DNA from: Warburgia ugandensis
Taxonomy: Eukaryota; Streptophyta; Magnoliopsida; Canellales; Canellaceae
Reading direction: 5' to 3'
Assembly (NCBI GenBank): GCA_035236585.1
Contig: CP141126.1
Location: 67,247,414 to 67,311,413, forward strand
DNA: 64,000 bases
The first letter of the stretch is position 1. Each line of letters begins with the position of its first letter. Both the position numbers and the translations under genes were made by a program. The notes beneath the pieces are model-generated. The model did no database searches. It was not told the origin of the DNA and was given only the letters and a program-made list of their open reading frames with translations. This document shows, piece by piece, positions 23,665 through 63,866 of the stretch.

Positions 23665-23670
23665 TTATTA

Positions 23671-23681
23671 CCCCCTTAAAA
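23671..23681 (-). promoter_or_regulatory. Polypurine tract
   Basis: On the minus strand TTTTAAGGGGG lies six bases before the 3' LTR, preceded by CGAGGATGAAATTC. This is the usual place and form of the plus-strand primer in Tekay/Del-type chromoviruses. Confidence 0.75.
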
Positions 23682-26600: not shown

Positions 26601-27115
26601 CTCTTAGATTATCATCAACATTTTCTCAAAGTCTGTCTTTTACATCCCCTATCATACTTATATCATATCCTTGTGATAGTGTACTCATATTCTGATATTC
26701 TTTATGATGGTAAGATAGCCATCTAGGTTTGTTCGATGTTCTTATCTTCGGTGAGATTGATCTATTACAAGTTAGAACTATCTACTAACAAGTCCACTAA
26801 CATCTTCATTCATCATTCTCATCATAATATAATTTATATATGAGTTTTCATATTTGCACCATACAACAATCCTTAATCCTTAAGTCGTCTTAGAATAAAT
26901 TTTGGATAAGGGTTGCACTATCCTCTATCTAATTATTTGTTAAACCAAGCTGTATTTCACCTATTTATTTATGGTGATATGCCTTGAGCATTAATATTGT
27001 AATCCTCAAATAGTAGTAGTCATCTCTACTACTCCTATTTATACTACTTCTCCTTGATTTTCTCTATTGTCTATGACCCTTGGACATGCTAGACTGGCTG
27101 TGAAAGGATAAAACT

Positions 27116-27129
27116 GGGCTCTAATACCA
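27116..27129 (-). promoter_or_regulatory. Primer binding site, initiator tRNA-Met
   Basis: The minus strand reads TGGTATTAGAGCCC two bases after the end of the 5' LTR. It matches the usual plant iMet primer site TGGTATCAGAGCC with one mismatch. This fixes the orientation of the element. Confidence 0.85.
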
Positions 27130-27131
27130 AC

Positions 27132-29804: not shown

Positions 29805-29856
29805 GCAGTTGATGATGTAGGGGCCATTAGAGTAGCAATAGGTCACCTCCTACCAA
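29805..29856. other. Unique flank left of the tandem array
   Basis: These 52 bases (GCAGTTGATGATGTAGG...) occur once. They join the retrotransposon to the first tandem unit and show that the duplicated segment starts at or just after 29857. Confidence 0.7.
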
Positions 29857-31677
29857 GAGGGTCCCATGAGTTTGTAAGCTACTAAGGTCTCTTTTAGATT
29901 AATTTAATTTAATTGTTAAGGCTAGGGTTGCATGTAAGGTGATACTTATCGTAGGTGGGCCAAGAGATGGTGATCAATCCACCCTGATCTTGTTGGGGTG
30001 AGTGCCATTACCAATTCAATTAAGCATTCCCACATAGTTCAAATCAACCTATATTCACATTAAAGCATGTCAATGTATCCTAAATGCAAATCTAATGCAA
30101 ACCCTAGAATGCAATAACTAAGGAGATTCTTTCTATATGCTCTTCACTATCATCCAAGTGCAACTAATCTAACAATGCAACTAATTTAGAAAATGGAAAG
30201 AATTGAAAAATAGTCTCATAGTGGGGCCTTGGAATCAGTCTTCTCATATATGTGTGGGTCCATGTACATGCTACCTCCCCTTCTAGGTTAGGATGGCCCA
30301 CCCTTGACCAATATTATTACAACTCTTTATTTTAAACTTAAATTGTAAAATATTTACAAGCATGTTCTCACTACAATCTACTTAGATAAAAAAAAATATG
30401 AAAAGAAACTATCCTAATGTCTTCCTCATGGTCCTTCTTCTTTTCCAAATTCCTATACAAATGAAAAGAAAATATCAAATTCTATAAGATAAGGAAAGTA
30501 TGCTAAAATGGAAACAATTCTATATGTGATCCTATGACTAAAAGTAGTGATAAACCATTACAAACCAAATTTAATTAAAACTCCGTTGCAAATTCCCGAC
30601 AGCTGCACCAAAAACTTGATGTGTCTTAATTAATTACCTCAAGTACATGGCTTTATTAGCTTATAGAATTGGAAAATGCAAGTTGATCCCACAAAGACTC
30701 CTTCATAAACAAGTTAATTAAAATTAAGTTTTTTACTCTAACCTAGCCAATCAAGAAAAGAAATTGAAAGAACTCTAAATTAAATAACTAATCCTAGCTA
30801 ACCAAATCAAAGCAAGTAAACCTAAGCTATGAAATATAGGTAAAAAAATAAAATACTTACTAAAATAAACTAAAAAAACAAAAAGAAAGCAAAGGAAACT
30901 AAATTAAAATTAACTAAGGAATGAAAAAGATAATTTCATTGATAAACTTCATTACAATTACAAGGAATGAAAGGAATAAATAAAATAACGAAAGAAAAGA
31001 AACTTCCTTAAAGTGGCCACTATAGGAGTCCTTTATTATGTGACTCAACAAGGCTCTTTACATGTCCTCTTCTTCTTTTTTGGGCTTGAACTTTGCTTTA
31101 TAGTCTTCATGTTGTGCACTCAACAAATGCATATACACTTACATTCAACTCACTGTACACTAAGCTACAACCCAGCTTTTCTCATCTCCTTAACCCAACA
31201 TGTTATAGACCCAATGAAATTCTCAAACCATGCTCAAGGAATTAGAAGATTCATGACTTAGCATTAGAAGGTGTTCTTCCTTTTGCTTTATTATCAAATC
31301 CTAAAGGAAGAAAAAAAATCAAAGAAAGATGAAGAAAGTGGTGTGTGTGTGTGTGTGATTCTAAGGGTGATGGAGGGTGTATGTAATGCAATGGAAGAAT
31401 GGAAAATAAAGAAAGGGGAATGAGGAAAATGGAACAACGAAAGAGAAAGGGAATTGGAGATGGAAGAGCTTCCTTACCTCTTCTCCATGGTATTAGATTT
31501 GATCTTGTGGTAGCTTTGGTAAAGGTGATCTCTCTCCCTCCATTTCTCGTAGATTTAGTTTTTGAGTACAAGGGAAAGATAAGAGATCAAAAGTTTTACT
31601 TATCTTTTACATATTTTTATAGATTTTAAGAAGTGTAACTCTGCCAATGCTGGTCCCAAGCCCAGATGAAAAAGGAG
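29857..31677. repeat. Tandem unit 1
   Basis: 1,821 bp. Markers: GACCAATATT, GACAGCTGCACC, CACTGTAC, CCCAGATG. (GT)8. It is the only unit preceded by unique DNA. Confidence 0.95.
30594..30610 (-). promoter_or_regulatory. Possible degenerate tRNA-Asp-type primer site
   Basis: On the minus strand TGGTGCAGCTGTCGGG resembles the TGGCGCCGTTGCCGGGGA primer site of Athila/Tat elements, with several mismatches. It follows TGATGTGTC (30617 on the plus strand), which could be the end of a leftward LTR. It is repeated in every unit; five units carry AATTT in place of AGCTG. This is a weak call. Confidence 0.3.
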
Positions 31678-33501
31678 GAGGGTCCCATGAGTTTGTAAGC
31701 TACTAAGGTCTCTTTTAGATTAATTTAATTTAATTGTTAAGGCTAGGGTTGCATGTAAGGTGATACTTATCGTAGGTGGGCCAAGAGATGGTGATCAATC
31801 CACCCTGATCTTGTTGGGGTGAGTGCCATTACCAATTCAATTAAGCATTCCCACATAGTTCAAATCAACCTATATTCACATTAAAGCATGTCAATGTATC
31901 CTAAATGCAAATCTAATGCAAACCCTAGAATGCAATAACTAAGGAGATTCTTTCTATATGCTCTTCACTATCATCCAAGTGCAACTAATCTAACAATGCA
32001 ACTAATTTAGAAAATGGAAAGAATTGAAAAATAGTCTCATAGTGGGGCCTTGGAATCAGTCTTCTCATATATGTGTGGGTCCATGTACATGCTACCTCCC
32101 CTTCTAGGTTAGGATGGCCCACCCTTGACCTATATTATTACAACTCTTTATTTTAAACTTAAATTGTAAAATATTTACAAGCATGTTCTCACTACAATCT
32201 ACTTAGATAAAAAAAATATGAAAAGAAACTATCCTAATGTCTTCCTCATGGTCCTTCTTCTTTTCCAAATTCCTATACAAATGAAAAGAAAATATCAAAT
32301 TCTATAAGATAAGGAAAGTATGCTAAAATGGAAACAATTCTATATGTGATCCTATGACTAAAAGTAGTGATAAACCATTACAAACCAAATTTAATTAAAA
32401 CTCCGTTGCAAATTCCCGACAGCTGCACCAAAAACTTGATGTGTCTTAATTAATTACCTCAAGTACATGGCTTTATTAGCTTATAGAATTGGAAAATGCA
32501 AGTTGATCCCACAAAGACTCCTTCATAAACAAGTTAATTAAAATTAAGTTTTTTACTCTAACCTAGCCAATCAAGAAAAGAAATTGAAAGAACTCTAAAT
32601 TAAATAACTAATCCTAGCTAACCAAATCAAAGCAAGTAAACCTAAGCTATGAAATATAGGTAAAAAAATAAAATACTTACTAAAATAAACTAAAAAACCA
32701 AAAAGAACGCAAAGGAAACTAAATTAAAATTAACTAAGGAATGAAAAAGATAATTTCATTGATAAACTTCATTACAATTACAAGGAATGAAAGGAATAAA
32801 TAAAATAACGAAAGAAAAGAAACTTCCTTAAAGTGGCCACTATAGGAGTCCTTTATTATGTGACTCAACAAGGCTCTTTACATGTCCTCTTCTTCTTTTT
32901 TGGGCTTGAACTTTGCTTTATAGTCTTCATGTTGTGCACTCAACAAATGCATATACACTTACTTTCAACTCACAGTACACTAAGCTACAACCCAGCTTTT
33001 CTCATCTCCTTAACCCAACATGTTATAGACCCAATGAAATTCTCAAACCATGCTCAAGGAATTAGAAGATTCATGACTTAGCATTAGAAGGTGTTCTTCC
33101 TTTTGCTTTATTATCAAATCCTAAAGGAAGAAAAAAAATCAAAGAAAGATGAAGAAAGTGGTGTGTGTGTGTGTGTGTGTGATTCTAAGGGTGATGGAGG
33201 GTGTATGTAATGCAATGGAAGAATGGAAAATAAAGAAAGGGGAATGAGGAAAATGGAACAACGAAAGAGAAAGGGAATTGGAGATGGAAGAGCTTCCTTA
33301 CCTCTTCTCCATGGTATTAGATTTGATCTTGTGGTAGCTTTGGTAAAGGTGATCTCTCTCCCTCCATTTCTCGTAGATTTAGTTTTTGAGTACAAGGGAA
33401 AGATAAGAGATCAAAAGTTTTACTTATCTTTTACATATTTTTATAGATTTTAAGAAGTGTAACTCTGCCAATGCTGGTCCCAAGCCCAGATGAAAAAGGA
33501 G
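31678..33501. repeat. Tandem unit 2
   Basis: 1,824 bp. Markers: GACCTATATT, GACAGCTGCACC, CACAGTAC, CCCAGATG. Private variants: AAACCAAAAAGAACGC and CTTACTTTCAAC. (GT)10. Confidence 0.95.
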
Positions 33502-35328
33502 GAGGGTCCCATGAGTTTGTAAGCTACTAAGGTCTCTTTTAGATTAATTTAATTTAATTGTTAAGGCTAGGGTTGCATGTAAGGTGATACTTATCGTAGG
33601 TGGGCCAAGAGATGGTGATCAATCCACCCTGATCTTGTTGGGGTGAGTGCCATTACCAATTCAATTAAGCATTCCCACATAGTTCAAATCAACCTATATT
33701 CACATTAAAGCATGTCAATGTATCCTAAATGCAAATCTAATGCAAACCCTAGAATGCAATAACTAAGGAGATTCTTTCTATATGCTCTTCACTATCATCC
33801 AAGTGCAACTAATCTAACAATGCAACTAATTTAGAAAATGGAAAGAATTGAAAAATAGTCTCATAGTGGGGCCTTGGAATCAGTCTTCTCATATATGTGT
33901 GGGTCCATGTACATGCTACCTCCCCTTCTAGGTTAGGATGGCCCACCCTTGACCTATATTATTACAACTCTTTATTTTAAACTTAAATTGTAAAATATTT
34001 ACAAGCATGTTCTCACTACAATCTACTTAGATAAAAAAAATATGAAAAGAAACTATCCTAATGTCTTCCTCATGGTCCTTCTTCTTTTCCAAATTCCTAT
34101 ACAAATGAAAAGAAAATATCAAATTCTATAAGATAAGGAAAGTATGCTAAAATGGAAACAATTCTATATGTGATCCTATGACTAAAAGTAGTGATAAACC
34201 ATTACAAACCAAATTTAATTAAAACTCCGTTGCAAATTCCCGACAGCTGCACCAAAAACTTGATGTGTCTTAATTAATTACCTCAAGTACATGGCTTTAT
34301 TAGCTTATAGAATTGGAAAATGCAAGTTGATCCCACAAAGACTCCTTCATAAACAAGTTAATTAAAATTAAGTTTTTTTACTCTAACCTAGCCAATCAAG
34401 AAAAGAAATTGAAAGAACTCTAAATTAAATAACTAATCCTAGCTAACCAAATCAAAGCAAGTAAACCTAAGCTATGAAATATAGGTAAAAAAATAAAATA
34501 CTTACTAAAATAAACTAAAAAAACAAAAAAGAAAGCAAAGGAAACTAAATTAAAATTAACTAAGGAATGAAAAAGATAATTTCATTGATAAACTTCATTA
34601 CAATTACAAGGAATGAAAGGAATAAATAAAATAACGAAAGAAAAGAAACTTCCTTAAAGTGGCCACTATAGGAGTCCTTTATTATGTGACTCAACAAGGC
34701 TCTTTACATGTCCTCTTCTTCTTTTTTGGGCTTGAACTTTGCTTTATAGTCTTCATGTTGTGCACTCAACAAATGCATATACACTTACATTCAACTCACT
34801 TGTACACTAAGCTACAACCCAGCTTTTCTCATCTCCTTAACCCAACATGTTATAGACCCAATGAAATTCTCAAACCATGCTCAAGGAATTAGAAGATTCA
34901 TGACTTAGCATTAGAAGGTGTTCTTCCTTTTGCTTTATTATCAAATCCTAAAGGAAGAAAAAAAATCAAAGAAAGATGAAGAAAGTGGTGTGTGTGTGTG
35001 TGTGTGTGATTCTAAGGGTGATGGAGGGTGTATGTAATGCAATGGAAGAATGGAAAATAAAGAAAGGGGAATGAGGAAAATGGAACAACGAAAGAGAAAG
35101 GGAATTGGAGATGGAAGAGCTTCCTTACCTCTTCTCCATGGTATTAGATTTGATCTTGTGGTAGCTTTGGTAAAGGTGATCTCTCTCCCTCCATTTCTCG
35201 TAGATTTAGTTTTTGAGTACAAGGGAAAGATAAGAGATCAAAAGTTTTACTTATCTTTTACATATTTTTATAGATTTTAAGAAGTGTAACTCTGCCAATG
35301 CTGGTCCCAAGCCCAGATGAAAAAGGAG
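33502..35328. repeat. Tandem unit 3
   Basis: 1,827 bp. Markers: GACCTATATT, GACAGCTGCACC, CACTTGTAC (one extra T), CCCAGATG. Confidence 0.95.
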
Positions 35329-37154
35329 GAGGGTCCCATGAGTTTGTAAGCTACTAAGGTCTCTTTTAGATTAATTTAATTTAATTGTTAAGGCTAGGGT
35401 TGCATGTAAGGTGATACTTATCGTAGGTGGGCCAAGAGATGGTGATCAATCCACCCTGATCTTGTTGGGGTGAGTGCCATTACCAATTCAATTAAGCATT
35501 CCCACATAGTTCAAATCAACCTATATTCACATTAAAGCATGTCAATGTATCCTAAATGCAAATCTAATGCAAACCCTAGAATGCAATAACTAAGGAGATT
35601 CTTTCTATATGCTCTTCACTATCATCCAAGTGCAACTAATCTAACAATGCAACTAATTTAGAAAATGGAAAGAATTGAAAAATAGTCTCATAGTGGGGCC
35701 TTGGAATCAGTCTTCTCATATATGTGTGGGTCCATGTACATGCTACCTCCCCTTCTAGGTTAGGATGGCCCACCCTTGACCTATATTATTACAACTCTTT
35801 ATTTTAAACTTAAATTGTAAAATATTTACAAGCATGTTCTCACTACAATCTACTTAGATAAAAAAAAAATATGAAAAGAAACTATCCTAATGTCTTCCTC
35901 ATGGTCCTTCTTCTTTTCCAAATTCCTATACAAATGAAAAGAAAATATCAAATTCTATAAGATAAGGAAAGTATGCTAAAATGGAAACAATTCTATATGT
36001 GATCCTATGACTAAAAGTAGTGATAAACCATTACAAACCAAATTTAATTAAAACTCCGTTGCAAATTCCCGACAGCTGCACCAAAAACTTGATGTGTCTT
36101 AATTAATTACCTCAAGTACATGGCTTTATTAGCTTATAGAATTGGAAAATGCAAGTTGATCCCACAAAGACTCCTTCATAAACAAGTTAATTAAAATTAA
36201 GTTTTTTTACTCTAACCTAGCCAATCAAGAAAAGAAATTGAAAGAACTCTAAATTAAATAACTAATCCTAGCTAACCAAATCAAAGCAAGTAAACCTAAG
36301 CTATGAAATATAGGTAAAAAAATAAAATACTTACTAAAATAAACTAAAAAAACAAAAAAGAAAGCAAAGGAAACTAAATTAAAATTAACTAAGGAATGAA
36401 AAAGATAATTTCATTGATAAACTTCATTACAATTACAAGGAATGAAAGGAATAAATAAAATAACGAAAGAAAAGAAACTTCCTTAAAGTGGCCACTATAG
36501 GAGTCCTTTATTATGTGACTCAACAAGGCTCTTTACATGTCCTCTTCTTCTTTTTTGGGCTTGAACTTTGCTTTATAGTCTTCATGTTGTGCACTCAACA
36601 AATGCATATACACTTACATTCAACTCACTGTACACTAAGCTACAACCCAGCTTTTCTCATCTCCTTAACCCAACATGTTATAGACCCAATGAAATTCTCA
36701 AACCATGCTCAAGGAATTAGAAGATTCATGACTTAGCATTAGAAGGTGTTCTTCCTTTTGCTTTATTATCAAATCCTAAAGGAAGAAAAAAAATCAAAGA
36801 AAGATGAAGAAAGTGGTGTGTGTGTGTGTGTGTGATTCTAAGGGTGATGGAGGGTGTATGTAATGCAATGGAAGAATGGAAAATAAAGAAAGGGGAATGA
36901 GGAAAATGGAACAACGAAAGAGAAAGGGAATTGGAGATGGAAGAGCTTCCTTACCTCTTCTCCATGGTATTAGATTTGATCTTGTGGTAGCTTTGGTAAA
37001 GGTGATCTCTCTCCCTCCATTTCTCGTAGATTTAGTTTTTGAGTACAAGGGAAAGATAAGAGATCAAAAGTTTTACTTATCTTTTACATATTTTTATAGA
37101 TTTTAAGAAGTGTAACTCTGCCAATGCTGGTCCCAAGCCCGGATGAAAAAGGAG
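35329..37154. repeat. Tandem unit 4
   Basis: 1,826 bp. Markers: GACCTATATT, GACAGCTGCACC, CACTGTAC, CCCGGATG. Confidence 0.95.
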
Positions 37155-38975
37155 GAGGGTCCCATGAGTTTGTAAGCTACTAAGGTCTCTTTTAGATTAA
37201 TTTAATTTAATTGTTAAGGCTAGGGTTGCATGTAAGGTGATACTTATCGTAGGTGGGCCAAGAGATGGTGATCAATCCACCCTGATCTTGTTGGGGTGAG
37301 TGCCATTACCAATTCAATTAAGCATTCCCACATAGTTCAAATCAACCTATATTCACATTAAAGCATGTCAATGTATCCTAAATGCAAATCTAATGCAAAC
37401 CCTAGAATGCAATAACTAAGGAGATTCTTTCTATATGCTCTTCACTATCATCCAAGTGCAACTAATCTAACAATGCAACTAATTTAGAAAATGGAAAGAA
37501 TTGAAAAATAGTCTCATAGTGGGGCCTTGGAATCAGTCTTCTCATATATGTGTGGGTCCATGTACATGCTACCTCCCCTTCTAGGTTAGGATGGCCCACC
37601 CTTGACCTATATTATTACAACTCTTTATTTTAAACTTAAATTGTAAAATATTTACAAGCATGTTCTCACTACAATCTACTTAGATAAAAAAATATGAAAA
37701 GAAACTATCCTAATGTCTTCCTCATGGTCCTTCTTCTTTTCCAAATTCCTATACAAATGAAAAGAAAATATCAAATTCTATAAGATAAGGAAAGTATGCT
37801 AAAATGGAAACAATTCTATATGTGATCCTATGACTAAAAGTAGTGATAAACCATTACAAACCAAATTTAATTAAAACTCCGTTGCAAATTCCCGACAATT
37901 TGCACCAAAAACTTGATGTGTCTTAATTAATTACCTCAAGTACATGGCTTTATTAGCTTATAGAATTGGAAAATGCAAGTTGATCCCACAAAGACTCCTT
38001 CATAAACAAGTTAATTAAAATTAAGTTTTTTTACTCTAACCTAGCCAATCAAGAAAAGAAATTGAAAGAACTCTAAATTAAATAACTAATCCTAGCTAAC
38101 CAAATCAAAGCAAGTAAACCTAAGCTATGAAATATAGGTAAAAAATAAAATACTTACTAAAATAAACTAAAAAAACAAAAAGAAAGCAAAGGAAACTAAA
38201 TTAAAATTAACTAAGGAATGAAAAAGATAATTTCATTGATAAACTTCATTACAATTACAAGGAATGAAAGGAATAAATAAAATAACGAAAGAAAAGAAAC
38301 TTCCTTAAAGTGGCCACTATAGGAGTCCTTTATTATGTGACTCAACAAGGCTCTTTACATGTCCTCTTCTTCTTTTTTGGGCTTGAACTTTGCTTTATAG
38401 TCTTCATGTTGTGCACTCAACAAATGCATATACACTTACATTCAACTCACTGTACACTAAGCTACAACCCAGCTTTTCTCATCTCCTTAACCCAACATGT
38501 TATAGACCCAATGAAATTCTCAAACCATGCTCAAGGAATTAGAAGATTCATGACTTAGCATTAGAAGGTGTTCTTCCTTTTGCTTTATTATCAAATCCTA
38601 AAGGAAGAAAAAAATCAAAGAAAGATGAAGAAAGTGGTGTGTGTGTGTGTGTGTGATTCTAAGGGTGATGGAGGGTGTATGTAATGCAATGGAAGAATGG
38701 AAAATAAAGAAAGGGGAATGAGGAAAATGGAACAACGAAAGAGAAAGGGAATTGGAGATGGAAGAGCTTCCTTACCTCTTCTCCATGGTATTAGATTTGA
38801 TCTTGTGGTAGCTTTGGTAAAGGTGATCTCTCTCCCTCCATTTCTCGTAGATTTAGTTTTTGAGTACAAGGGAAAGATAAGAGATCAAAAGTTTTACTTA
38901 TCTTTTACATATTTTTATAGATTTTAAGAAGTGTAACTCTGCCAATGCTGGTCCCAAGCCCGGATGAAAAAGGAG
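37155..38975. repeat. Tandem unit 5
   Basis: 1,821 bp. Markers: GACCTATATT, GACAATTTGCACC, CACTGTAC, CCCGGATG. Confidence 0.95.
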
Positions 38976-40802
38976 GAGGGTCCCATGAGTTTGTAAGCTA
39001 CTAAGGTCTCTTTTAGATTAATTTAATTTAATTGTTAAGGCTAGGGTTGCATGTAAGGTGATACTTATCGTAGGTGGGCCAAGAGATGGTGATCAATCCA
39101 CCCTGATCTTGTTGGGGTGAGTGCCATTACCAATTCAATTAAGCATTCCCACATAGTTCAAATCAACCTATATTCACATTAAAGCATGTCAATGTATCCT
39201 AAATGCAAATCTAATGCAAACCCTAGAATGCAATAACTAAGGAGATTCTTTCTATATGCTCTTCACTATCATCCAAGTGCAACTAATCTAACAATGCAAC
39301 TAATTTAGAAAATGGAAAGAATTGAAAAATAGTCTCATAGTGGGGCCTTGGAATCAGTCTTCTCATATATGTGTGGGTCCATGTACATGCTACCTCCCCT
39401 TCTAGGTTAGGATGGCCCACCCTTGACCTATATTATTACAACTCTTTATTTTAAACTTAAATTGTAAAATATTTACAAGCATGTTCTCACTACAATCTAC
39501 TTAGATAAAAAAAAAAATATTAAAAGAAACTATCCTAATGTCTTCCTCATGGTCCTTCTTCTTTTCCAAATTCCTATACAAATGAAAAGAAAATATCAAA
39601 TTCTATAAGATAAGGAAAGTATGCTAAAATGGAAACAATTCTATATGTGATCCTATGACTAAAAGTAGTGATAAACCATTACAAACCAAATTTAATTAAA
39701 ACTCCGTTGCAAATTCCCGACAGCTGCACCAAAAACTTGATGTGTCTTAATTAATTACCTCAAGTACATGGCTTTATTAGCTTATAGAATTGGAAAATGC
39801 AAGTTGATCCCACAAAGACTCCTTCATAAACAAGTTAATTAAAATTAAGTTTTTTACTCTAACCTAGCCAATCAAGAAAAGAAATTGAAAGAACTCTAAA
39901 TTAAATAACTAATCCTAGCTAACCAAATCAAAGCAAGTAAACCTAAGCTATGAAATATAGGTAAAAAAATAAAATACTTACTAAAATAAACTAAAAAAAC
40001 AAAAAGAAAGCAAAGGAAACTAAATTAAAATTAACTAAGGAATGAAAAAGATAATTTCATTGATAAACTTCATTACAATTACAAGGAATGAAAGGAATAA
40101 ATAAAATAACGAAAGAAAAGAAACTTCCTTAAAGTGGCCACTATAGGAGTCCTTTATTATGTGACTCAACAAGGCTCTTTACATGTCCTCTTCTTCTTTT
40201 TGGGCTTGAACTTTGCTTTATAGTCTTCATGTTGTGCACTCAACAAATGCATATACACTTACATTCAACTCACTGTACACTAAGCTACAACCCAGCTTTT
40301 CTCATCTCCTTAACCCAACATGTTATAGACCCAATGAAATTCTCAAACCATGCTCAAGGAATTAGAAGATTCATGACTTAGCATTAGAAGGTGTTCTTCC
40401 TTTTGCTTTATTATCAAATCCTAAAGGAAGAAAAAAAAATCAAAGAAAGATGAAGAAAGTGGTGTGTGTGTGTGTGTGTGTGATTCTAAGGGTGATGGAG
40501 GGTGTATGTAATGCAATGGAAGAATGGAAAATAAAGAAAGGGGAATGAGGAAAATGGAACAACGAAAGAGAAAGGGAATTGGAGATGGAAGAGCTTCCTT
40601 ACCTCTTCTCCATGGTATTAGATTTGATCTTGTGGTAGCTTTGGTAAAGGTGATCTCTCTCCCTCCATTTCTCGTAGATTTAGTTTTTGAGTACAAGGGA
40701 AAGATAAGAGATCAAAAGTTTTACTTATCTTTTACATATTTTTATAGATTTTAAGAAGTGTAACTCTGCCAATGCTGGTCCCAAGCCCGGATGAAAAAGG
40801 AG
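38976..40802. repeat. Tandem unit 6
   Basis: 1,827 bp. Markers: GACCTATATT, GACAGCTGCACC, CACTGTAC, CCCGGATG. Private ATATTAAAAGAAAC at about 39516, and one T fewer in the TTCTTTTTGGGC run, which removes the 82-codon frame. Confidence 0.95.
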
Positions 40803-42622
40803 GAGGGTCCCATGAGTTTGTAAGCTACTAAGGTCTCTTTTAGATTAATTTAATTTAATTGTTAAGGCTAGGGTTGCATGTAAGGTGATACTTATCGTAG
40901 GTGGGCCAAGAGATGGTGATCAATCCACCCTGATCTTGTTGGGGTGAGTGCCATTACCAATTCAATTAAGCATTCCCACATAGTTCAAATCAACCTATAT
41001 TCACATTAAAGCATGTCAATGTATCCTAAATGCAAATCTAATGCAAACCCTAGAATGCAATAACTAAGGAGATTCTTTCTATATGCTCTTCACTATCATC
41101 CAAGTGCAACTAATCTAACAATGCAACTAATTTAGAAAATGGAAAGAATTGAAAAATAGTCTCATAGTGGGGCCTTGGAATCAGTCTTCTCATATATGTG
41201 TGGGTCCATGTACATGCTACCTCCCCTTCTAGGTTAGGATGGCCCACCCTTGACCTATATTATTACAACTCTTTATTTTAAACTTAAATTGTAAAATATT
41301 TACAAGCATGTTCTCACTACAATCTACTTAGATAAAAAAAAATATGAAAAGAAACTATCCTAATGTCTTCCTCATGGTCCTTCTTCTTTTCCAAATTCCT
41401 ATACAAATGAAAAGAAAATATCAAATTCTATAAGATAAGGAAAGTATGCTAAAATGGAAACAATTCTATATGTGATCCTATGACTAAAAGTAGTGATAAA
41501 CCATTACAAACCAAATTTAATTAAAACTCCGTTGCAAATTCCCGACAGCTGCACCAAAAACTTGATGTGTCTTAATTAATTACCTCAAGTACATGGCTTT
41601 ATTAGCTTATAGAATTGGAAAATGCAAGTTGATCCCACAAAGACTCCTTCATAAACAAGTTAATTAAAATTAAGTTTTTTACTCTAACCTAGCCAATCAA
41701 GAAAAGAAATTGAAAGAACTCTAAATTAAATAACTAATCCTAGCTAACCAAATCAAAGCAAGTAAACCTAAGCTATGAAATATAGGTAAAAAATAAAATA
41801 CTTACTAAAATAAACTAAAAAACAAAAAGAAAGCAAAGGAAACTAAATTAAAATTAACTAAGGAATGAAAAAGATAATTTCATTGATAAACTTCATTACA
41901 ATTACAAGGAATGAAAGGAATAAATAAAATAACGAAAGAAAAGAAACTTCCTTAAAGTGGCCACTATAGGAGTCCTTTATTATGTGACTCAACAAGGCTC
42001 TTTACATGTCCTCTTCTTCTTTTTTGGGCTTGAACTTTGCTTTATAGTCTTCATGTTGTGCACTCAACAAATGCATATACACTTACATTCAACTCACGTA
42101 CACTAAGCTACAACCCAGCTTTTCTCATCTCCTTAACCCAACATGTTATAGACCCAATGAAATTCTCAAACCATGCTCAAGGAATTAGAAGATTCATGAC
42201 TTAGCATTAGAAGGTGTTCTTCCTTTTGCTTTATTATCAAATCCTAAAGGAAGAAAAAAAATCAAAGAAAGATGAAGAAAGTGGTGTGTGTGTGTGTGTG
42301 TGATTCTAAGGGTGATGGAGGGTGTATGTAATGCAATGGAAGAATGGAAAATAAAGAAAGGGGAATGAGGAAAATGGAACAACGAAAGAGAAAGGGAATT
42401 GGAGATGGAAGAGCTTCCTTACCTCTTCTCCATGGTATTAGATTTGATCTTGTGGTAGCTTTGGTAAAGGTGATCTCTCTCCCTCCATTTCTCGTAGATT
42501 TAGTTTTTGAGTACAAGGGAAAGATAAGAGATCAAAAGTTTTACTTATCTTTTACATATTTTTATAGATTTTAAGAAGTGTAACTCTGCCAATGCTGGTC
42601 CCAAGCCCAGATGAAAAAGGAG
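40803..42622. repeat. Tandem unit 7
   Basis: 1,820 bp. Markers: GACCTATATT, GACAGCTGCACC, CACGTAC (one base fewer), CCCAGATG. Confidence 0.95.
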
Positions 42623-44445
42623 GAGGGTCCCATGAGTTTGTAAGCTACTAAGGTCTCTTTTAGATTAATTTAATTTAATTGTTAAGGCTAGGGTTGCATG
42701 TAAGGTGATACTTATCGTAGGTGGGCCAAGAGATGGTGATCAATCCACCCTGATCTTGTTGGGGTGAGTGCCATTACCAATTCAATTAAGCATTCCCACA
42801 TAGTTCAAATCAACCTATATTCACATTAAAGCATGTCAATGTATCCTAAATGCAAATCTAATGCAAACCCTAGAATGCAATAACTAAGGAGATTCTTTCT
42901 ATATGCTCTTCACTATCATCCAAGTGCAACTAATCTAACAATGCAACTAATTTAGAAAATGGAAAGAATTGAAAAATAGTCTCATAGTGGGGCCTTGGAA
43001 TCAGTCTTCTCATATATGTGTGGGTCCATGTACATGCTACCTCCCCTTCTAGGTTAGGATGGCCCACCCTTGACCAATATTATTACAACTCTTTATTTTA
43101 AACTTAAATTGTAAAATATTTACAAGCATGTTCTCACTACAATCTACTTAGATAAAAAAAATATGAAAAGAAACTATCCTAATGTCTTCCTCATGGTCCT
43201 TCTTCTTTTCCAAATTCCTATACAAATGAAAAGAAAATATCAAATTCTATAAGATAAGGAAAGTATGCTAAAATGGAAACAATTCTATATGTGATCCTAT
43301 GACTAAAAGTAGTGATAAACCATTACAAACCAAATTTAATTAAAACTCCGTTGCAAATTCCCGACAGCTGCACCAAAAACTTGATGTGTCTTAATTAATT
43401 ACCTCAAGTACATGGCTTTATTAGCTTATAGAATTGGAAAATGCAAGTTGATCCCACAAAGACTCCTTCATAAACAAGTTAATTAAAATTAAGTTTTTTA
43501 CTCTAACCTAGCCAATCAAGAAAAGAAATTGAAAGAACTCTAAATTAAATAACTAATCCTAGCTAACCAAATCAAAGCAAGTAAACCTAAGCTATGAAAT
43601 ATAGGTAAAAAAATAAAATACTTACTAAAATAAACTAAAAAAACAAAAAGAAAGCAAAGGAAACTAAATTAAAATTAACTAAGGAATGAAAAAGATAATT
43701 TCATTGATAAACTTCATTACAATTACAAGGAATGAAAGGAATAAATAAAATAACGAAAGAAAAGAAACTTCCTTAAAGTGGCCACTATAGGAGTCCTTTA
43801 TTATGTGACTCAACAAGGCTCTTTACATGTCCTCTTCTTCTTTTTTGGGCTTGAACTTTGCTTTATAGTCTTCATGTTGTGCACTCAACAAATGCATATA
43901 CACTTACATTCAACTCACTGTACACTAAGCTACAACCCAGCTTTTCTCATCTCCTTAACCCAACATGTTATAGACCCAATGAAATTCTCAAACCATGCTC
44001 AAGGAATTAGAAGATTCATGACTTAGCATTAGAAGGTGTTCTTCCTTTTGCTTTATTATCAAATCCTAAAGGAAGAAAAAAATCAAAGGAAGATGAAGAA
44101 AGTGGTGTGTGTGTGTGTGTGTGTGATTCTAAGGGTGATGGAGGGTGTATGTAATGCAATGGAAGAATGGAAAATAAAGAAAGGGGAATGAGGAAAATGG
44201 AACAACGAAAGAGAAAGGGAATTGGAGATGGAAGAGCTTCCTTACCTCTTCTCCATGGTATTAGATTTGATCTTGTGGTAGCTTTGGTAAAGGTGATCTC
44301 TCTCCCTCCATTTCTCGTAGATTTAGTTTTTGAGTACAAGGGAAAGATAAGAGATCAAAAGTTTTACTTATCTTTTACATATTTTTATAGATTTTAAGAA
44401 GTGTAACTCTGCCAATGCTGGTCCCAAGCCCGGATGAAAAAGGAG
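42623..44445. repeat. Tandem unit 8
   Basis: 1,823 bp. Markers: GACCAATATT, GACAGCTGCACC, CACTGTAC, CCCGGATG. Private TCAAAGGAAGATG at about 44083. Confidence 0.95.
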
Positions 44446-46273
44446 GAGGGTCCCATGAGTTTGTAAGCTACTAAGGTCTCTTTTAGATTAATTTAATTTA
44501 ATTGTTAAGGCTAGGGTTGCATGTAAGGTGATACTTATCGTAGGTGGGCCAAGAGATGGTGATCAATCCACCCTGATCTTGTTGGGGTGAGTGCCATTAC
44601 CAATTCAATTAAGCATTCCCACATAGTTCAAATCAACCTATATTCACATTAAAGCATGTCAATGTATCCTAAATGCAAATCTAATGCAAACCCTAGAATG
44701 CAATAACTAAGGAGATTCTTTCTATATGCTCTTCACTATCATCCAAGTGCAACTAATCTAACAATGCAACTAATTTAGAAAATGGAAAGAATTGAAAAAT
44801 AGTCTCATAGTGGGGCCTTGGAATCAGTCTTCTCATATATGTGTGGGTCCATGTACATGCTACCTCCCCTTCTAGGTTAGGATGGCCCACCCTTGACCAA
44901 TATTATTACAACTCTTTATTTTAAACTTAAATTGTAAAATATTTACAAGCATGTTCTCACTACAATCTACTTAGATAAAAAAAAATATGAAAAGAAACTA
45001 TCCTAATGTCTTCCTCATGGTCCTTCTTCTTTTCCAAATTCCTATACAAATGAAAAGAAAATATCAAATTCTATAAGATAAGGAAAGTATGCTAAAATGG
45101 AAACAATTCTATATGTGATCCTATGACTAAAAGTAGTGATAAACCATTACAAACCAAATTTAATTAAAACTCCGTTGCAAATTCCCGACAATTTGCACCA
45201 AAAACTTGATGTGTCTTAATTAATTACCTCAAGTACATGGCTTTATTAGCTTATAGAATTGGAAAATGCAAGTTGATCCCACAAAGACTCCTTCATAAAC
45301 AAGTTAATTAAAATTAAGTTTTTTTACTCTAACCTAGCCAATCAAGAAAAGAAATTGAAAGAACTCTAAATTAAATAACTAATCCTAGCTAACCAAATCA
45401 AAGCAAGTAAACCTAAGCTATGAAATATAGGTAAAAAAATAAAATACTTACTAAAATAAACTAAAAAACAAAAAGAAAGCAAAGGAAACTAAATTAAAAT
45501 TAACTAAGGAATGAAAAAGATAATTTCATTGATAAACTTCATTACAATTACAAGGAATGAAAGGAATAAATAAAATAACGAAAGAAAAGAAACTTCCTTA
45601 AAGTGGCCACTATAGGAGTCCTTTATTATGTGACTCAACAAGGCTCTTTACATGTCCTCTTCTTCTTTTTTGGGCTTGAACTTTGCTTTATAGTCTTCAT
45701 GTTGTGCACTCAACAAATGCATATACACTTACATTCAACTCACTTTGTACACTAAGCTACAACCCAGCTTTTCTCATCTCCTTAACCCAACATGTTATAG
45801 ACCCAATGAAATTCTCAAACCATGCTCAAGGAATTAGAAGATTCATGACTTAGCATTAGAAGGTGTTCTTCCTTTTGCTTTATTATCAAATCCTAAAGGA
45901 AGAAAAAAAATCAAAGAAAGATGAAGAAAGTGGTGTGTGTGTGTGTGTGTGTGATTCTAAGGGTGATGGAGGGTGTATGTAATGCAATGGAAGAATGGAA
46001 AATAAAGAAAGGGGAATGAGGAAAATGGAACAACGAAAGAGAAAGGGAATTGGAGATGGAAGAGCTTCCTTACCTCTTCTCCATGGTATTAGATTTGATC
46101 TTGTGGTAGCTTTGGTAAAGGTGATCTCTCTCCCTCCATTTCTCGTAGATTTAGTTTTTGAGTACAAGGGAAAGATAAGAGATCAAAAGTTTTACTTATC
46201 TTTTACATATTTTTATAGATTTTAAGAAGTGTAACTCTGCCAATGCTGGTCCCAAGCCCGGATGAAAAAGGAG
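44446..46273. repeat. Tandem unit 9
   Basis: 1,828 bp. Markers: GACCAATATT, GACAATTTGCACC, CACTTTGTAC, CCCGGATG. Confidence 0.95.
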
Positions 46274-48101
46274 GAGGGTCCCATGAGTTTGTAAGCTACT
46301 AAGGTCTCTTTTAGATTAATTTAATTTAATTGTTAAGGCTAGGGTTGCATGTAAGGTGATACTTATCGTAGGTGGGCCAAGAGATGGTGATCAATCCACC
46401 CTGATCTTGTTGGGGTGAGTGCCATTACCAATTCAATTAAGCATTCCCACATAGTTCAAATCAACCTATATTCACATTAAAGCATGTCAATGTATCCTAA
46501 ATGCAAATCTAATGCAAACCCTAGAATGCAATAACTAAGGAGATTCTTTCTATATGCTCTTCACTATCATCCAAGTGCAACTAATCTAACAATGCAACTA
46601 ATTTAGAAAATGGAAAGAATTGAAAAATAGTCTCATAGTGGGGCCTTGGAATCAGTCTTCTCATATATGTGTGGGTCCATGTACATGCTACCTCCCCTTC
46701 TAGGTTAGGATGGCCCACCCTTGACCAATATTATTACAACTCTTTATTTTAAACTTAAATTGTAAAATATTTACAAGCATGTTCTCACTACAATCTACTT
46801 AGATAAAAAAAAATATGAAAAGAAACTATCCTAATGTCTTCCTCATGGTCCTTCTTCTTTTCCAAATTCCTATACAAATGAAAAGAAAATATCAAATTCT
46901 ATAAGATAAGGAAAGTATGCTAAAATGGAAACAATTCTATATGTGATCCTATGACTAAAAGTAGTGATAAACCATTACAAACCAAATTTAATTAAAACTC
47001 CGTTGCAAATTCCCGACAATTTGCACCAAAAACTTGATGTGTCTTAATTAATTACCTCAAGTACATGGCTTTATTAGCTTATAGAATTGGAAAATGCAAG
47101 TTGATCCCACAAAGACTCCTTCATAAACAAGTTAATTAAAATTAAGTTTTTTTACTCTAACCTAGCCAATCAAGAAAAGAAATTGAAAGAACTCTAAATT
47201 AAATAACTAATCCTAGCTAACCAAATCAAAGCAAGTAAACCTAAGCTATGAAATATAGGTAAAAAAATAAAATACTTACTAAAATAAACTAAAAAACAAA
47301 AAAGAAAGCAAAGGAAACTAAATTAAAATTAACTAAGGAATGAAAAAGATAATTTCATTGATAAACTTCATTACAATTACAAGGAATGAAAGGAATAAAT
47401 AAAATAACGAAAGAAAAGAAACTTCCTTAAAGTGGCCACTATAGGAGTCCTTTATTATGTGACTCAACAAGGCTCTTTACATGTCCTCTTCTTCTTTTTT
47501 GGGCTTGAACTTTGCTTTATAGTCTTCATGTTGTGCACTCAACAAATGCATATACACTTACATTCAACTCACTTTGTACACTAAGCTACAACCCAGCTTT
47601 TCTCATCTCCTTAACCCAACATGTTATAGACCCAATGAAATTCTCAAACCATGCTCAAGGAATTAGAAGATTCATGACTTAGCATTAGAAGGTGTTCTTC
47701 CTTTTGCTTTATTATCAAATCCTAAAGGAAGAAAAAAATCAAAGAAAGATGAAGAAAGTGGTGTGTGTGTGTGTGTGTGTGATTCTAAGGGTGATGGAGG
47801 GTGTATGTAATGCAATGGAAGAATGGAAAATAAAGAAAGGGGAATGAGGAAAATGGAACAACGAAAGAGAAAGGGAATTGGAGATGGAAGAGCTTCCTTA
47901 CCTCTTCTCCATGGTATTAGATTTGATCTTGTGGTAGCTTTGGTAAAGGTGATCTCTCTCCCTCCATTTCTCGTAGATTTAGTTTTTGAGTACAAGGGAA
48001 AGATAAGAGATCAAAAGTTTTACTTATCTTTTACATATTTTTATAGATTTTAAGAAGTGTAACTCTGCCAATGCTGGTCCCAAGCCCGGATGAAAAAGGA
48101 G
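46274..48101. repeat. Tandem unit 10
   Basis: 1,828 bp. It has the same marker set as unit 9: GACCAATATT, GACAATTTGCACC, CACTTTGTAC, CCCGGATG. Confidence 0.95.
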
Positions 48102-49926
48102 GAGGGTCCCATGAGTTTGTAAGCTACTAAGGTCTCTTTTAGATTAATTTAATTTAATTGTTAAGGCTAGGGTTGCATGTAAGGTGATACTTATCGTAGG
48201 TGGGCCAAGAGATGGTGATCAATCCACCCTGATCTTGTTGGGGTGAGTGCCATTACCAATTCAATTAAGCATTCCCACATAGTTCAAATCAACCTATATT
48301 CACATTAAAGCATGTCAATGTATCCTAAATGCAAATCTAATGCAAACCCTAGAATGCAATAACTAAGGAGATTCTTTCTATATGCTCTTCACTATCATCC
48401 AAGTGCAACTAATCTAACAATGCAACTAATTTAGAAAATGGAAAGAATTGAAAAATAGTCTCATAGTGGGGCCTTGGAATCAGTCTTCTCATATATGTGT
48501 GGGTCCATGTACATGCTACCTCCCCTTCTAGGTTAGGATGGCCCACCCTTGACCAATATTATTACAACTCTTTATTTTAAACTTAAATTGTAAAATATTT
48601 ACAAGCATGTTCTCACTACAATCTACTTAGATAAAAAAAAATATGAAAAGAAACTATCCTAATGTCTTCCTCATGGTCCTTCTTCTTTTCCAAATTCCTA
48701 TACAAATGAAAAGAAAATATCAAATTCTATAAGATAAGGAAAGTATGCTAAAATGGAAACAATTCTATATGTGATCCTATGACTAAAAGTAGTGATAAAC
48801 CATTACAAACCAAATTTAATTAAAACTCCGTTGCAAATTCCCGGCAGCTGCACCAAAAACTTGATGTGTCTTAATTAATTACCTCAAGTACATGGCTTTA
48901 TTAGCTTATAGAATTGGAAAATGCAAGTTGATCCCACAAAGACTCCTTCATAAACAAGTTAATTAAAATTAAGTTTTTTACTCTAACCTAGCCAATCAAG
49001 AAAAGAAATTGAAAGAACTCTAAATTAAATAACTAATCCTAGCTAACCAAATCAAAGCAAGTAAACCTAAGCTATGAAATATAGGTAAAAAAATAAAATA
49101 CTTACTAAAATAAACTAAAAAAACAAAAAGAAAGCAAAGGAAACTAAATTAAAATTAACTAAGGAATGAAAAAGATAATTTCATTGATAAACTTCATTAC
49201 AATTACAAGGAATGAAAGGAATAAATAAAATAACGAAAGAAAAGAAACTTCCTTAAAGTGGCCACTATAGGAGTCCTTTATTATGTGACTCAACAAGGCT
49301 CTTTACATGTCCTCTTCTTCTTTTTTGGGCTTGAACTTTGCTTTATAGTCTTCATGTTGTGCACTCAACAAATGCATATACACTTACATTCAACTCACTG
49401 TACACTAAGCTACAACCCAGCTTTTCTCATCTCCTTAACCCAACATGTTATAGACCCAATGAAATTCTCAAACCATGCTCAAGGAATTAGAAGATTCATG
49501 ACTTAGCATTAGAAGGTGTTCTTCCTTTTGCTTTATTATCAAATCCTAAAGGAAGAAAAAAAATCAAAGAAAGATGAAGAAAGTGGTGTGTGTGTGTGTG
49601 TGTGTGATTCTAAGGGTGATGGAGGGTGTATGTAATGCAATGGAAGAATGGAAAATAAAGAAAGGGGAATGAGGAAAATGGAACAACGAAAGAGAAAGGG
49701 AATTGGAGATGGAAGAGCTTCCTTACCTCTTCTCCATGGTATTAGATTTGATCTTGTGGTAGCTTTGGTAAAGGTGATCTCTCTCCCTCCATTTCTCGTA
49801 GATTTAGTTTTTGAGTACAAGGGAAAGATAAGAGATCAAAAGTTTTACTTATCTTTTACATATTTTTATAGATTTTAAGAAGTGTAACTCTGCCAATGCT
49901 GGTCCCAAGCCCGGATGAAAAAGGAG
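48102..49926. repeat. Tandem unit 11
   Basis: 1,825 bp. Markers: GACCAATATT, CACTGTAC, CCCGGATG, and a private CCCGGCAGCTG at 48841. Confidence 0.95.
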
Positions 49927-51752
49927 GAGGGTCCCATGAGTTTGTAAGCTACTAAGGTCTCTTTTAGATTAATTTAATTTAATTGTTAAGGCTAGGGTTG
50001 CATGTAAGGTGATACTTATCGTAGGTGGGCCAAGAGATGGTGATCAATCCACCCTGATCTTGTTGGGGTGAGTGCCATTACCAATTCAATTAAGCATTCC
50101 CACATAGTTCAAATCAACCTATATTCACATTAAAGCATGTCAATGTATCCTAAATGCAAATCTAATGCAAACCCTAGAATGCAATAACTAAGGAGATTCT
50201 TTCTATATGCTCTTCACTATCATCCAAGTGCAACTAATCTAACAATGCAACTAATTTAGAAAATGGAAAGAATTGAAAAATAGTCTCATAGTGGGGCCTT
50301 GGAATCAGTCTTCTCATATATGTGTGGGTCCATGTACATGCTACCTCCCCTTCTAGGTTAGGATGGCCCACCCTTGACCAATATTATTACAACTCTTTAT
50401 TTTAAACTTAAATTGTAAAATATTTACAAGCATGTTCTCACTACAATCTACTTAGATAAAAAAAATATGAAAAGAAACTATCCTAATGTCTTCCTCATGG
50501 TCCTTCTTCTTTTCCAAATTCCTATACAAATGAAAAGAAAATATCAAATTCTATAAGATAAGGAAAGTATGCTAAAATGGAAACAATTCTATATGTGATC
50601 CTATGACTAAAAGTAGTGATAAACCATTACAAACCAAATTTAATTAAAACTCCGTTGCAAATTCCCGACAATTTGCACCAAAAACTTGATGTGTCTTAAT
50701 TAATTACCTCAAGTACATGGCTTTATTAGCTTATAGAATTGGAAAATGCAAGTTGATCCCACAAAGACTCCTTCATAAACAAGTTAATTAAAATTAAGTT
50801 TTTTACTCTAACCTAGCCAATCAAGAAAAGAAATTGAAAGAACTCTAAATTAAATAACTAATCCTAGCTAACCAAATCAAAGCAAGTAAACCTAAGCTAT
50901 GAAATATAGGTAAAAAAATAAAATACTTACTAAAATAAACTAAAAAACAAAAAGAAAGCAAAGGAAACTAAATTAAAATTAACTAAGGAATGAAAAAGAT
51001 AATTTCATTGATAAACTTCATTACAATTACAAGGAATGAAAGGAATAAATAAAATAACGAAAGAAAAGAAACTTCCTTAAAGTGGCCACTATAGGAGTCC
51101 TTTATTATGTGACTCAACAAGGCTCTTTACATGTCCTCTTCTTCTTTTTTGGGCTTGAACTTTGCTTTATAGTCTTCATGTTGTGCACTCAACAAATGCA
51201 TATACACTTACATTCAACTCACTTTGTACACTAAGCTACAACCCAGCTTTTCTCATCTCCTTAACCCAACATGTTATAGACCCAATGAAATTCTCAAACC
51301 ATGCTCAAGGAATTAGAAGATTCATGACTTAGCATTAGAAGGTGTTCTTCCTTTTGCTTTATTATCAAATCCTAAAGGAAGAAAAAAAATCAAAGAAAGA
51401 TGAAGAAAGTGGTGTGTGTGTGTGTGTGTGTGATTCTAAGGGTGATGGAGGGTGTATGTAATGCAATGGAAGAATGGAAAATAAAGAAAGGGGAATGAGG
51501 AAAATGGAACAACGAAAGAGAAAGGGAATTGGAGATGGAAGAGCTTCCTTACCTCTTCTCCATGGTATTAGATTTGATCTTGTGGTAGCTTTGGTAAAGG
51601 TGATCTCTCTCCCTCCATTTCTCGTAGATTTAGTTTTTGAGTACAAGGGAAAGATAAGAGATCAAAAGTTTTACTTATCTTTTACATATTTTTATAGATT
51701 TTAAGAAGTGTAACTCTGCCAATGCTGGTCCCAAGCCCAGATGAAAAAGGAG
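49927..51752. repeat. Tandem unit 12
   Basis: 1,826 bp. Markers: GACCAATATT, GACAATTTGCACC, CACTTTGTAC, CCCAGATG. Confidence 0.95.
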
Positions 51753-53578
51753 GAGGGTCCCATGAGTTTGTAAGCTACTAAGGTCTCTTTTAGATTAATT
51801 TAATTTAATTGTTAAGGCTAGGGTTGCATGTAAGGTGATACTTATCGTAGGTGGGCCAAGAGATGGTGATCAATCCACCCTGATCTTGTTGGGGTGAGTG
51901 CCATTACCAATTCAATTAAGCATTCCCACATAGTTCAAATCAACCTATATTCACATTAAAGCATGTCAATGTATCCTAAATGCAAATCTAATGCAAACCC
52001 TAGAATGCAATAACTAAGGAGATTCTTTCTATATGCTCTTCACTATCATCCAAGTGCAACTAATCTAACAATGCAACTAATTTAGAAAATGGAAAGAATT
52101 GAAAAAATAGTCTCATAGTGGGGCCTTGGAATCAGTCTTCTCATATATGTGTGGGTCCATGTACATGCTACCTCCCCTTCTAGGTTAGGATGGCCCACCC
52201 TTGACCAATATTATTACAACTCTTTATTTTAAACTTAAATTGTAAAATATTTACAAGCATGTTCTCACTACAATCTACTTAGATAAAAAAAAAATATGAA
52301 AAGAAACTATCCTAATGTCTTCCTCATGGTCCTTCTTCTTTTCCAAATTCCTATACAAATGAAAAGAAAATATCAAATTCTATAAGATAAGGAAAGTATG
52401 CTAAAATGGAAACAATTCTATATGTGATCCTATGACTAAAAGTAGTGATAAACCATTACAAACCAAATTTAATTAAAACTCCGTTGCAAATTCCCGACAA
52501 TTTGCACCAAAAACTTGATGTGTCTTAATTAATTACCTCAAGTACATGGCTTTATTAGCTTATAGAATTGGAAAATGCAAGTTGATCCCACAAAGACTCC
52601 TTCATAAACAAGTTAATTAAAATTAAGTTTTTTTACTCTAACCTAGCCAATCAAGAAAAGAAATTGAAAGAACTCTAAATTAAATAACTAATCCTAGCTA
52701 ACCAAATCAAAGCAAGTAAACCTAAGCTATGAAATATAGGTAAAAAAATAAAATACTTACTAAAATAAACTAAAAAAACAAAAAGAAAGCAAAGGAAACT
52801 AAATTAAAATTAACTAAGGAATGAAAAAGATAATTTCATTGATAAACTTCATTACAATTACAAGGAATGAAAGGAATAAATAAAATAACGAAAGAAAAGA
52901 AACTTCCTTAAAGTGGCCACTATAGGAGTCCTTTATTATGTGACTCAACAAGGCTCTTTACATGTCCTCTTCTTCTTTTTGGGCTTGAACTTTGCTTTAT
53001 AGTCTTCATGTTGTGCACTCAACAAATGCATATACACTTACATTCAACTCACTGTACACTAAGCTACAACCCAGCTTTTCTCATCTCCTTAACCCAACAT
53101 GTTATAGACCCAATGAAATTCTCAAACCATGCTCAAGGAATTAGAAGATTCATGACTTAGCATTAGAAGGTGTTCTTCCTTTTGCTTTATTATCAAATCC
53201 TAAAGGAAGAAAAAAAATCAAAGAAAGATGAAGAAAGTGGTGTGTGTGTGTGTGTGTGATTCTAAGGGTGATGGAGGGTGTATGTAATGCAATGGAAGAA
53301 TGGAAAATAAAGAAAGGGGAATGAGGAAAATGGAACAACGAAAGAGAAAGGGAATTGGAGATGGAAGAGCTTCCTTACCTCTTCTCCATGGTATTAGATT
53401 TGATCTTGTGGTAGCTTTGGTAAAGGTGATCTCTCTCCCTCCATTTCTCGTAGATTTAGTTTTTGAGTACAAGGGAAAGATAAGAGATCAAAAGTTTTAC
53501 TTATCTTTTACATATTTTTATAGATTTTAAGAAGTGTAACTCTGCCAATGCTGGTCCCAAGCCCAGATGAAAAAGGAG
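51753..53578. repeat. Tandem unit 13, joined to the full LINE
   Basis: 1,826 bp. Markers: GACCAATATT, GACAATTTGCACC, CACTGTAC, CCCAGATG. Private extra A in TTGAAAAAATAG at about 52100. Its last 40 bp are the true 5' end of the LINE, which continues past 53585. Confidence 0.95.
53521..53538. repeat. LINE target site duplication, 5' copy
   Basis: TAGATTTTAAGAAGTGTA (18 bp) is identical to 63866-63883 on the far side of the LINE. Because it lies inside the amplified interval, every tandem unit carries it too. Confidence 0.95.
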
Positions 53579-53584
53579 GAGGGT

Positions 53585-53860
53585 CTTGCGTCAGGTGTCA
53601 ACTGGCAAGGGGGAAGTTGAAGATGATTCTGTTATTTCTTTCTTACAAATGAATATGCATTTATATATTAGTGTGTGAGGAAGAAATGAAAATCATCTCC
53701 AGCTTCTTAAAATATGGCCACCCTTGTGCCAGGTTGCCAGCTGGCAAGGGTTTAGTTGAAGATTATTTTTATTATTTCTTTTATGCTTGCAAATGAATAT
53801 GCATTTGTATATTAGTTTGTAAGGAAGAAATGAAAATCATCTTCAGCTTTTTAAAACTAC
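53585..53860 (+). repeat. Two ~138 bp direct repeats in the LINE leader
   Basis: CTTGCGTCAGG...CTGGCAAGG at 53585 recurs as CTTGTGCCAGG...CTGGCAAGG at 53723. Both copies continue through AGTTGAAGAT, AATGAATATGCATTT and GGAAGAAATGAAAATCATC. The second copy overlaps the start of the open frame at 53830. Confidence 0.85.
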
Positions 53861-59075: not shown

Positions 59076-59081
59076 TTCGTC

Positions 59082-59093
59082 AGTAGGGAAGAT
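59082..59093 (+). promoter_or_regulatory. Polypurine tract of the nested chromovirus
   Basis: AGTAGGGAAGAT directly precedes the LTR start TGTAATAACG and follows GAAATTTCG, the same context as in the element at 21006-29804. Confidence 0.6.
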
Positions 59094-59780: not shown

Positions 59781-59805
59781 ATTATTATTATTATTATTAT
59801 TATTA
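59781..59805. repeat. (TTA)n microsatellite
   Basis: Eight TTA-type triplets inside the LTR. Confidence 0.9.
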
Positions 59806-63782: not shown

Positions 63783-63796
63783 TTGGGATAAGGTCT

Positions 63797-63865: not shown

Positions 63866-63866
<1 letters not shown>

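Follow-up and report, generated by a model that had tools for sequence, protein, structure and literature searches.

The subject here is a tandem array in the genome of Warburgia ugandensis whose repeated unit is composed of pieces of two different transposons. The window, by which is meant the whole 64,000-nucleotide stretch of DNA analysed, is C1:67247414-67311413 of a 14-contig, 1.12-Gb assembly. Comparison of the window with itself (self-BLAST) displays direct repeats spaced ~1.82 kb across 29857-53585, and these are exactly 13 head-to-tail units followed by the 7-bp word GAGGGTC, with unduplicated parental sequence bounding both sides. In order, the units are 1821, 1824, 1827, 1826, 1821, 1827, 1820, 1823, 1828, 1828, 1825, 1826 and 1826 bp long, and they meet at 31678, 33502 and so on to 51753. 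Read from left to right on the plus strand, a unit consists of 760 bp of leader, ~1,020 bp of long terminal repeat (LTR) ending in a 19-bp target duplication, and 47 bp of a long interspersed nuclear element (LINE); the leader and LTR part is that of an LTR retrotransposon on the minus strand. The window contains the target duplication, ATAGATTTTAAGAAGTGTA, in 14 copies: every unit has one close to its end, and the remaining copy is at 63865, where the (TGA)n tail of the LINE stops. Directly after the duplication, in 13/13 units, stands the 47-bp LINE head, and only the last unit extends onward into the LINE. A sequence-only reading of this DNA had proposed 13 tandem copies of host LTR-like DNA plus a LINE head, in units of ~1,825 bp each ending in the left target duplication and the first 47 LINE bp; self-BLAST and the junction positions bear this out for every unit. 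The features of the array are:

29857 to 53585, no strand: 13-unit tandem array (~1,825 bp each) and the shared 7-bp word that follows it, from self-comparison and junction positions
29803 to 29856, no strand: unduplicated left flank, host leader up to an inserted LTR element, contiguous in 4 of 20 relatives
29857 to 29863, no strand: left break point word GAGGGTC, in host leader
29857 to 30616, minus strand: first unit, host retrotransposon leader; just beyond it begin 17 of 49 genomic matches
30592 to 30610, minus strand: first unit, primer-binding-site-like stretch, 14 of 19 to a presumed plant tRNA-Asp complement
30617 to 31637, minus strand: first unit, host LTR part through the target duplication; LTR pair in the relative L021
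53520 to 53538, no strand: left target site duplication of the LINE, last unit (present in all 13)
53539 to 53585, plus strand: LINE head of 47 bp, last unit (present in all 13)
53579 to 53585, no strand: right break point word GAGGGTC, LINE bases 41-47

How alike are the units, and could there really be fewer of them? Pairwise, they differ by substitution at a mean of 0.20% and a maximum of 0.44%, with a minimum of 0 between units 9 and 10; across all 13, substitutions fall in 12 columns. A chance repeat was rejected, as 13 long units are >99.5% alike by substitutions. Such near-identity, at its extreme in units 9 and 10, together with an array length of 23.7 kb that possibly exceeds that of the reads used, is in favour of an artefact in which the assembler stacked one or a few real units. 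However, with gaps counted 13/13 unit sequences are distinct, the parental flanks are clean at both ends of the array, and the joint, with its 7 bp of microhomology, resembles a biological break, so that we hold an artefact to be very improbable.

Judged by sequence, the host DNA in the unit is demonstrably LTR plus leader of an LTR retrotransposon because of three things: a repeat pair in a relative, the places at which genomic matches start, and a primer-site-like stretch. In the relative L021 the LTR stretch of the unit lies in two direct repeats of ~2.2 kb (257-2485 and 7133-9283, 78% identity), i.e., the host repeat has paired LTRs. Among 49 genomic matches to the unit, 17 start at unit position 755-773, as expected of LTR ends. 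Just outside the LTR border the primer-binding-site-like stretch has 14-15/19 matches in 8/13 units and fewer than 14 in the other 5, the reference being a presumed plant tRNA-Asp complement; a score of at least 14 is reached nowhere else in the window, and all 8 places share one unit position. A shuffle control made with unit 13, whose own site scores below 14, reaches 14 in 1/300. This partial match, with no pol seen, is what the host repeat offers by way of Tat/Athila features. A gag domain (PF03732, 3.4e-6) is present in one open reading frame (ORF) of the relative L023; the 2 L021 ORFs scanned have no gag or pol domain, and no pol was seen among the scanned ORFs of host relatives. The host LTR/leader sequence itself is present at many genomic places, going by the best-scored matches of the unit search. 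Each unit also has a TATA-like stretch, CTATAAAAATA, identified by eye (e.g., 31612-31622, minus strand), which overlaps the LINE target duplication; if it works as the LTR promoter, that promoter too would exist in 13 copies, opposite in strand to the LINE. As for the 47-bp LINE leader, the remark of the sequence-only reading that any promoter activity in it would be multiplied 13-fold is a conjecture.

Beyond the array the last unit leads into the LINE. That it alone does so had been proposed and is right; that the LINE is whole had also been proposed and is not, as it is interrupted at ~55.86-62.63 kb by 5′-truncated Ty3/gypsy-type sequence and its reading frame is broken. The insert carries protease, reverse transcriptase, RNase H and integrase-related domains. 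From the head rightward the layout is:

53539 to 55860, plus strand: LINE 5′ part with 138-bp and 69-bp internal repeats, weak endonuclease match and start of the reverse transcriptase; right limit approximate
55861 to 62627, plus strand: 5′-truncated Ty3/gypsy-type retrotransposon sequence within the LINE; approximate limits, read by eye
62628 to 63864, plus strand: LINE 3′ part with the remaining reverse transcriptase and (TGA)n tail; left limit approximate
63865 to 63883, no strand: right target site duplication of the LINE
63884 to 64000, minus strand: host LTR continuing past the LINE, and for ~0.9 kb further in L022

What kind of LINE is it? It has the non-LTR reverse transcriptase (RVT_1, 9.3e-28) and the endonuclease by which LINEs are recognised, though the endonuclease match (Exo_endo_phos, 6.2e-4) is weak, at 20 bits below the curated cut-off of 24.5. 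Among PDB entries it is closest in sequence to R2 reverse transcriptases, and the 14 matches include L1. A protein search with a piece of the LINE gave 460 relatives, and among the 120 listed those named by organism are from plants (e.g., Stephania, Rhododendron, Malus and Zea). The (TGA)n tail, and a presumed likeness to plant RTE sequences suggest that the LINE may be RTE-like. For the microsatellite tail, the comparison is with RTE elements as they are presented in an extract of PMC2887409.

Scored copies of the LINE family (40 of 8,461 first-look candidates, 39 of them besides the window copy) are 92-94% identical to the window LINE, and 31 of those 39 align from the first base of the head (32/40 with the window copy). 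Upstream sequence was compared for plus-strand matches, with 13/20 fetched loci inspected (12 besides the window LINE) and 7 left out; in 9 of the 12 the copy begins at the same LINE base, and across the 13 loci what lies upstream varies from copy to copy. These alignments identify the 47-bp head as the 5′ terminus of a LINE family that is dispersed in the genome. At LINE base 27, within a CpG of the head (unit column 1821), the 13 units have 7 G and 6 A, and 13 family rows, the window LINE included, have 8 G and 5 A. Behind the head, at 53539-54108, the LINE 5′ region contains two 138-bp and about three 69-bp internal repeats, and family copies align over the same stretch. The first 138-bp repeat starts at 53585, which is the last base of the array's right break point word.

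Which came first, LINE or array? The host relatives fetched were 20 loci, and in 10 of them the sequence is continuous across the insertion site, what is right of the LINE here adjoining directly what is left of it. One of the 10 (L020) is the window's own empty site:

15212 to 16149, minus strand: host LTR relative without the LINE

At thresholds of E up to 0.01 the LINE head has no match in any of the 20, and 0/49 genomic unit matches extend more than 5 bases into it (its first base is query base 1787). The target duplication and head are in 13/13 units and relatives are without the head; therefore the amplification would have followed the insertion, and the order of LINE insertion first and tandem amplification second, which the sequence-only reading had put forward, is supported by these continuous relatives, by the lack of a head match in all 20, and by the start of the LINE family at the head. 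Two of the relatives (L011 and L015) have diverged matches to the LINE 5′ region elsewhere in the locus; that at L015:1190-1488, 74% like the LINE 5′ region, is beside the other border of the host LTR relative and is without the 47-bp head. Separately, an inverted pair in the window (11682-12423 and 14451-15196, 75% identical) ends exactly at the start of the empty-site LTR relative.

The reverse order has a version in which the host LTR was arrayed first, the LINE entered one unit and conversion then spread its head to all. Exchange among units, which it needs, clearly occurs (see below). However, the right border of the unit is inside the LINE and the joint uses LINE bases 41-47, while in an array older than the LINE the border should fall within host DNA, and this array has no joint of that kind; moreover, 20/20 fetched relatives are without a head match. 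Insertion of the LINE into a pre-existing array was rejected on the position of the right border, and the spreading of a head by conversion strikes us as barely credible.

The left flank, 29803-29863, runs into the unit start in 4/20 relatives (L002, L003, L007, L009), and because it does so the left break is placed inside the host element. The left parent, ...CCAAGAGGGTCCCATG, and the right parent, ...AGGAGGGTCTTGCG, share exactly 7 bp, GAGGGTC. Both parental break points survive, and when 200,000 random pairs of breaks were drawn from the neighbourhood, 7 bp or more were shared in a fraction of 0.00075.

Is the array confined to this locus? The genome-wide DNA search with the unit, in which 39 of 6,708 candidates were scored and very common words skipped, is not a census, and the array itself is absent from its output. 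Uniqueness was instead judged by pattern search for the junction across the 1.12-Gb assembly. The 27-base joint, with up to 3 mismatches allowed, has 12 matches in the whole assembly and all are the internal joints of this array; the reversed pattern, as control, has 0. A second pattern, for the head, with up to 2 mismatches, has 514 matches, and the 12 perfect ones are all in the array; the other 88 heads among the 100 listed of the 514 are scattered-looking LINE heads, no two of them at array spacing. A dispersed family of arrays was rejected on this restriction of the junction to one locus. The case that would have undone the earlier proposal, the same unit arrayed elsewhere, was thus sought by junction sequence and 12/12 matches came back to this locus. 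Since there is one 23.7-kb array, and the joint occurs 12 times in 1.12 Gb, all here, we call the array macrosatellite-like, at a single locus, and not a satellite family. Its units are near-identical and head to tail, with parts of two transposons (LTR/leader and LINE head) in 13/13 of them, and both source elements are also dispersed in the genome, as in transposon-derived tandem repeats with composite monomers; satellites in the strict sense form long arrays, usually at numerous loci or making up much of the genome, which this single array does not.

The variants within the units are informative about their later history. Four informative substitution sites (455, 749, 1027 and 1821) were chosen, site 751 being excluded as it was counted as one change with 749, and all 6 pairs of them show four combinations; with gap sites included, 93/136 site pairs are incompatible (17 sites). 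Four-combination pairs mean that units have exchanged sequence, and exchange plus conversion among units is supported. At site 455 the variants are grouped into three runs of units (runs test 0.008).

The course of events that we regard as highly probable is then as follows. A LINE of the dispersed family landed in the LTR of an LTR retrotransposon that was already old and decayed, as the 19-bp target duplication shows. The interval from GAGGGTC in the host leader to LINE bases 41-47 was next joined end to start, a joint that the array preserves; this would have been a microhomology-mediated event, e.g., sister-chromatid end joining or template switching at a fork, and would have given a tandem of two copies. 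Unequal exchange plus gene conversion among ~1.8-kb copies would have raised the number to 13, and would have shuffled variants among the units, the shuffling itself being visible in the site combinations. Several facts weigh against this account. The word GAGGGTC is exact at the left place in 2/4 aligned relatives (L003, L009), and L002 and L007 differ. The copy number comes from a single assembly. Runs tests at the three other sites are not significant, neighbouring units are not clearly closer to each other (adjacent-distance test 0.20; Mantel r 0.16, p 0.10), and with these tests non-significant, stepwise duplication of neighbours is not shown. Among the four substitution sites, a CpG in one case and an adjoining homopolymer in another leave room for repeated mutation or read error, and many of the 17 sites in the 136-pair test are gaps in runs.

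The weak similarity of neighbours gives stepwise growth no advantage over another route, in which the founding joint is unchanged but the copies stem from a single unit that formed an extrachromosomal circle, multiplied by rolling-circle replication and returned to its own locus by recombination. A circle closed at GAGGGTC would yield the identical 12 joints and outer flanks, and for maize arrays a circle route was not excludable according to an extract of Sharma et al. 2013 (PMC3648361). However, the incompatible variant combinations demand exchange among units under the circle route too, and the junction search found no scattered copies elsewhere, such as re-insertion of circles might leave; we consider it unlikely. 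To return to the favoured sequence of insertion, microhomology-joined duplication and unequal exchange, when might it have taken place? Plant neutral rates are ~0.7-1.3 x 10^-8 per site per year, and at these, if there had been no homogenisation, the array would have an age on the scale of 0.1 million years, which is only a guess because of homogenisation. Most likely the array has no function.

The locus is a well-preserved case of a known class, transposon-derived composite tandem repeats, and comparison with other members, drawn here from extracts of the papers cited, brings out what is particular to it. Nearest are the maize CRM1TR/CRM4TR arrays (PMC3648361), at three loci in all, in or near centromeres, for which a start by illegitimate recombination was proposed and gene conversion between units described. 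Like the present array, their units come from the border region of LTR and untranslated leader and have unit-to-unit gene conversion. However, they derive from one kind of element, whereas the present unit adds the target duplication and head of a second; also, the extract reports no short direct repeats found that would account for their joint in one step, whereas here a single 7-bp match explains it. The Sobo satellite of wild potato, as described in the same source, resembles the present unit in that its 4.7-kb monomer is partly LTR-like, but it is ~360 kb, against 23.7 kb here, and that description has no mention of a LINE head. The Ogre-derived Lathyrus satellites (Vondrak et al. 2019, PMC7004042) are likewise LTR-retrotransposon sequence that has expanded, but their starting point is a set of short tandem repeats that the element already has, downstream of the coding region, and no pre-existing short tandem array of that type was seen in the host repeat here. 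Where satellites have come from pieces of LINEs, the cases given in the extract of one review involve 3′ ends or coding parts (PMC9659126). A 2025 review (PMC12628747) proposes that composite monomers come from 'TE graveyards' (TE, transposable element), nested insertions that later turned tandem, and, in the part drawn on, treats the origin of mixed-transposon satellite monomers as an open question. Those monomers, like the present unit, have pieces of several transposons; they are unassignable to specific ones, quite a contrast to this locus where parents, insertion site, target duplication and break points are all readable. In searches of open-licence papers no other description of such a structure was found.

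What the locus adds is that both parents, the insertion scar and the joint are still readable in one case, and it so lets the order of insertion, joint, expansion and exchange be read. With legible parental sequences and a known 7-bp joint, the model is testable by comparison of individuals or related species. A more general proposal is made tentatively, and we think it rather doubtful: that this is a composite satellite at its founding stage, with parents and break points intact, in which the LINE 5′ end supplied the second copy of the word and so made a self-amplifying unit, and that LINE 5′ regions may be fragile or transcribed seeds of arrays in this genome. The idea of a seed was suggested by the right break being at the border of the head and the 138-bp repeats. 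Against the seeding of further arrays, the 88 other heads listed, of 514, show no second array.

The host LTR has also been entered elsewhere. Right of the window, in L022:3-9701, it runs for the ~0.9 kb already mentioned, is split by an insertion of ~8.6 kb and then resumes; the insertion bears its own repeat pair (4590-6027 and 8156-9568, 86.5%). Together with the LINE, this makes a minimum of two insertions nested in the host LTR.

On the other side, 54 bp left of the array, 21007-29802 is an LTR-type element with terminal repeats of ~2.65 kb that are 92-93% identical; no Pfam match above cut-off was present in its scanned ORFs, and the stretch at 9161-9955 is related to it. Pfam scans of short ORFs within and around the array gave no informative match, and in the window no Rfam family at gathering thresholds and no tRNA gene were found. 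A weak DUF4216 match is at 3023-3394 (2.4e-6, 28.4 bits, under the curated cut-off of 30.6), and the window starts, at 1-2004, with a diverged tandem array of 197-bp period.

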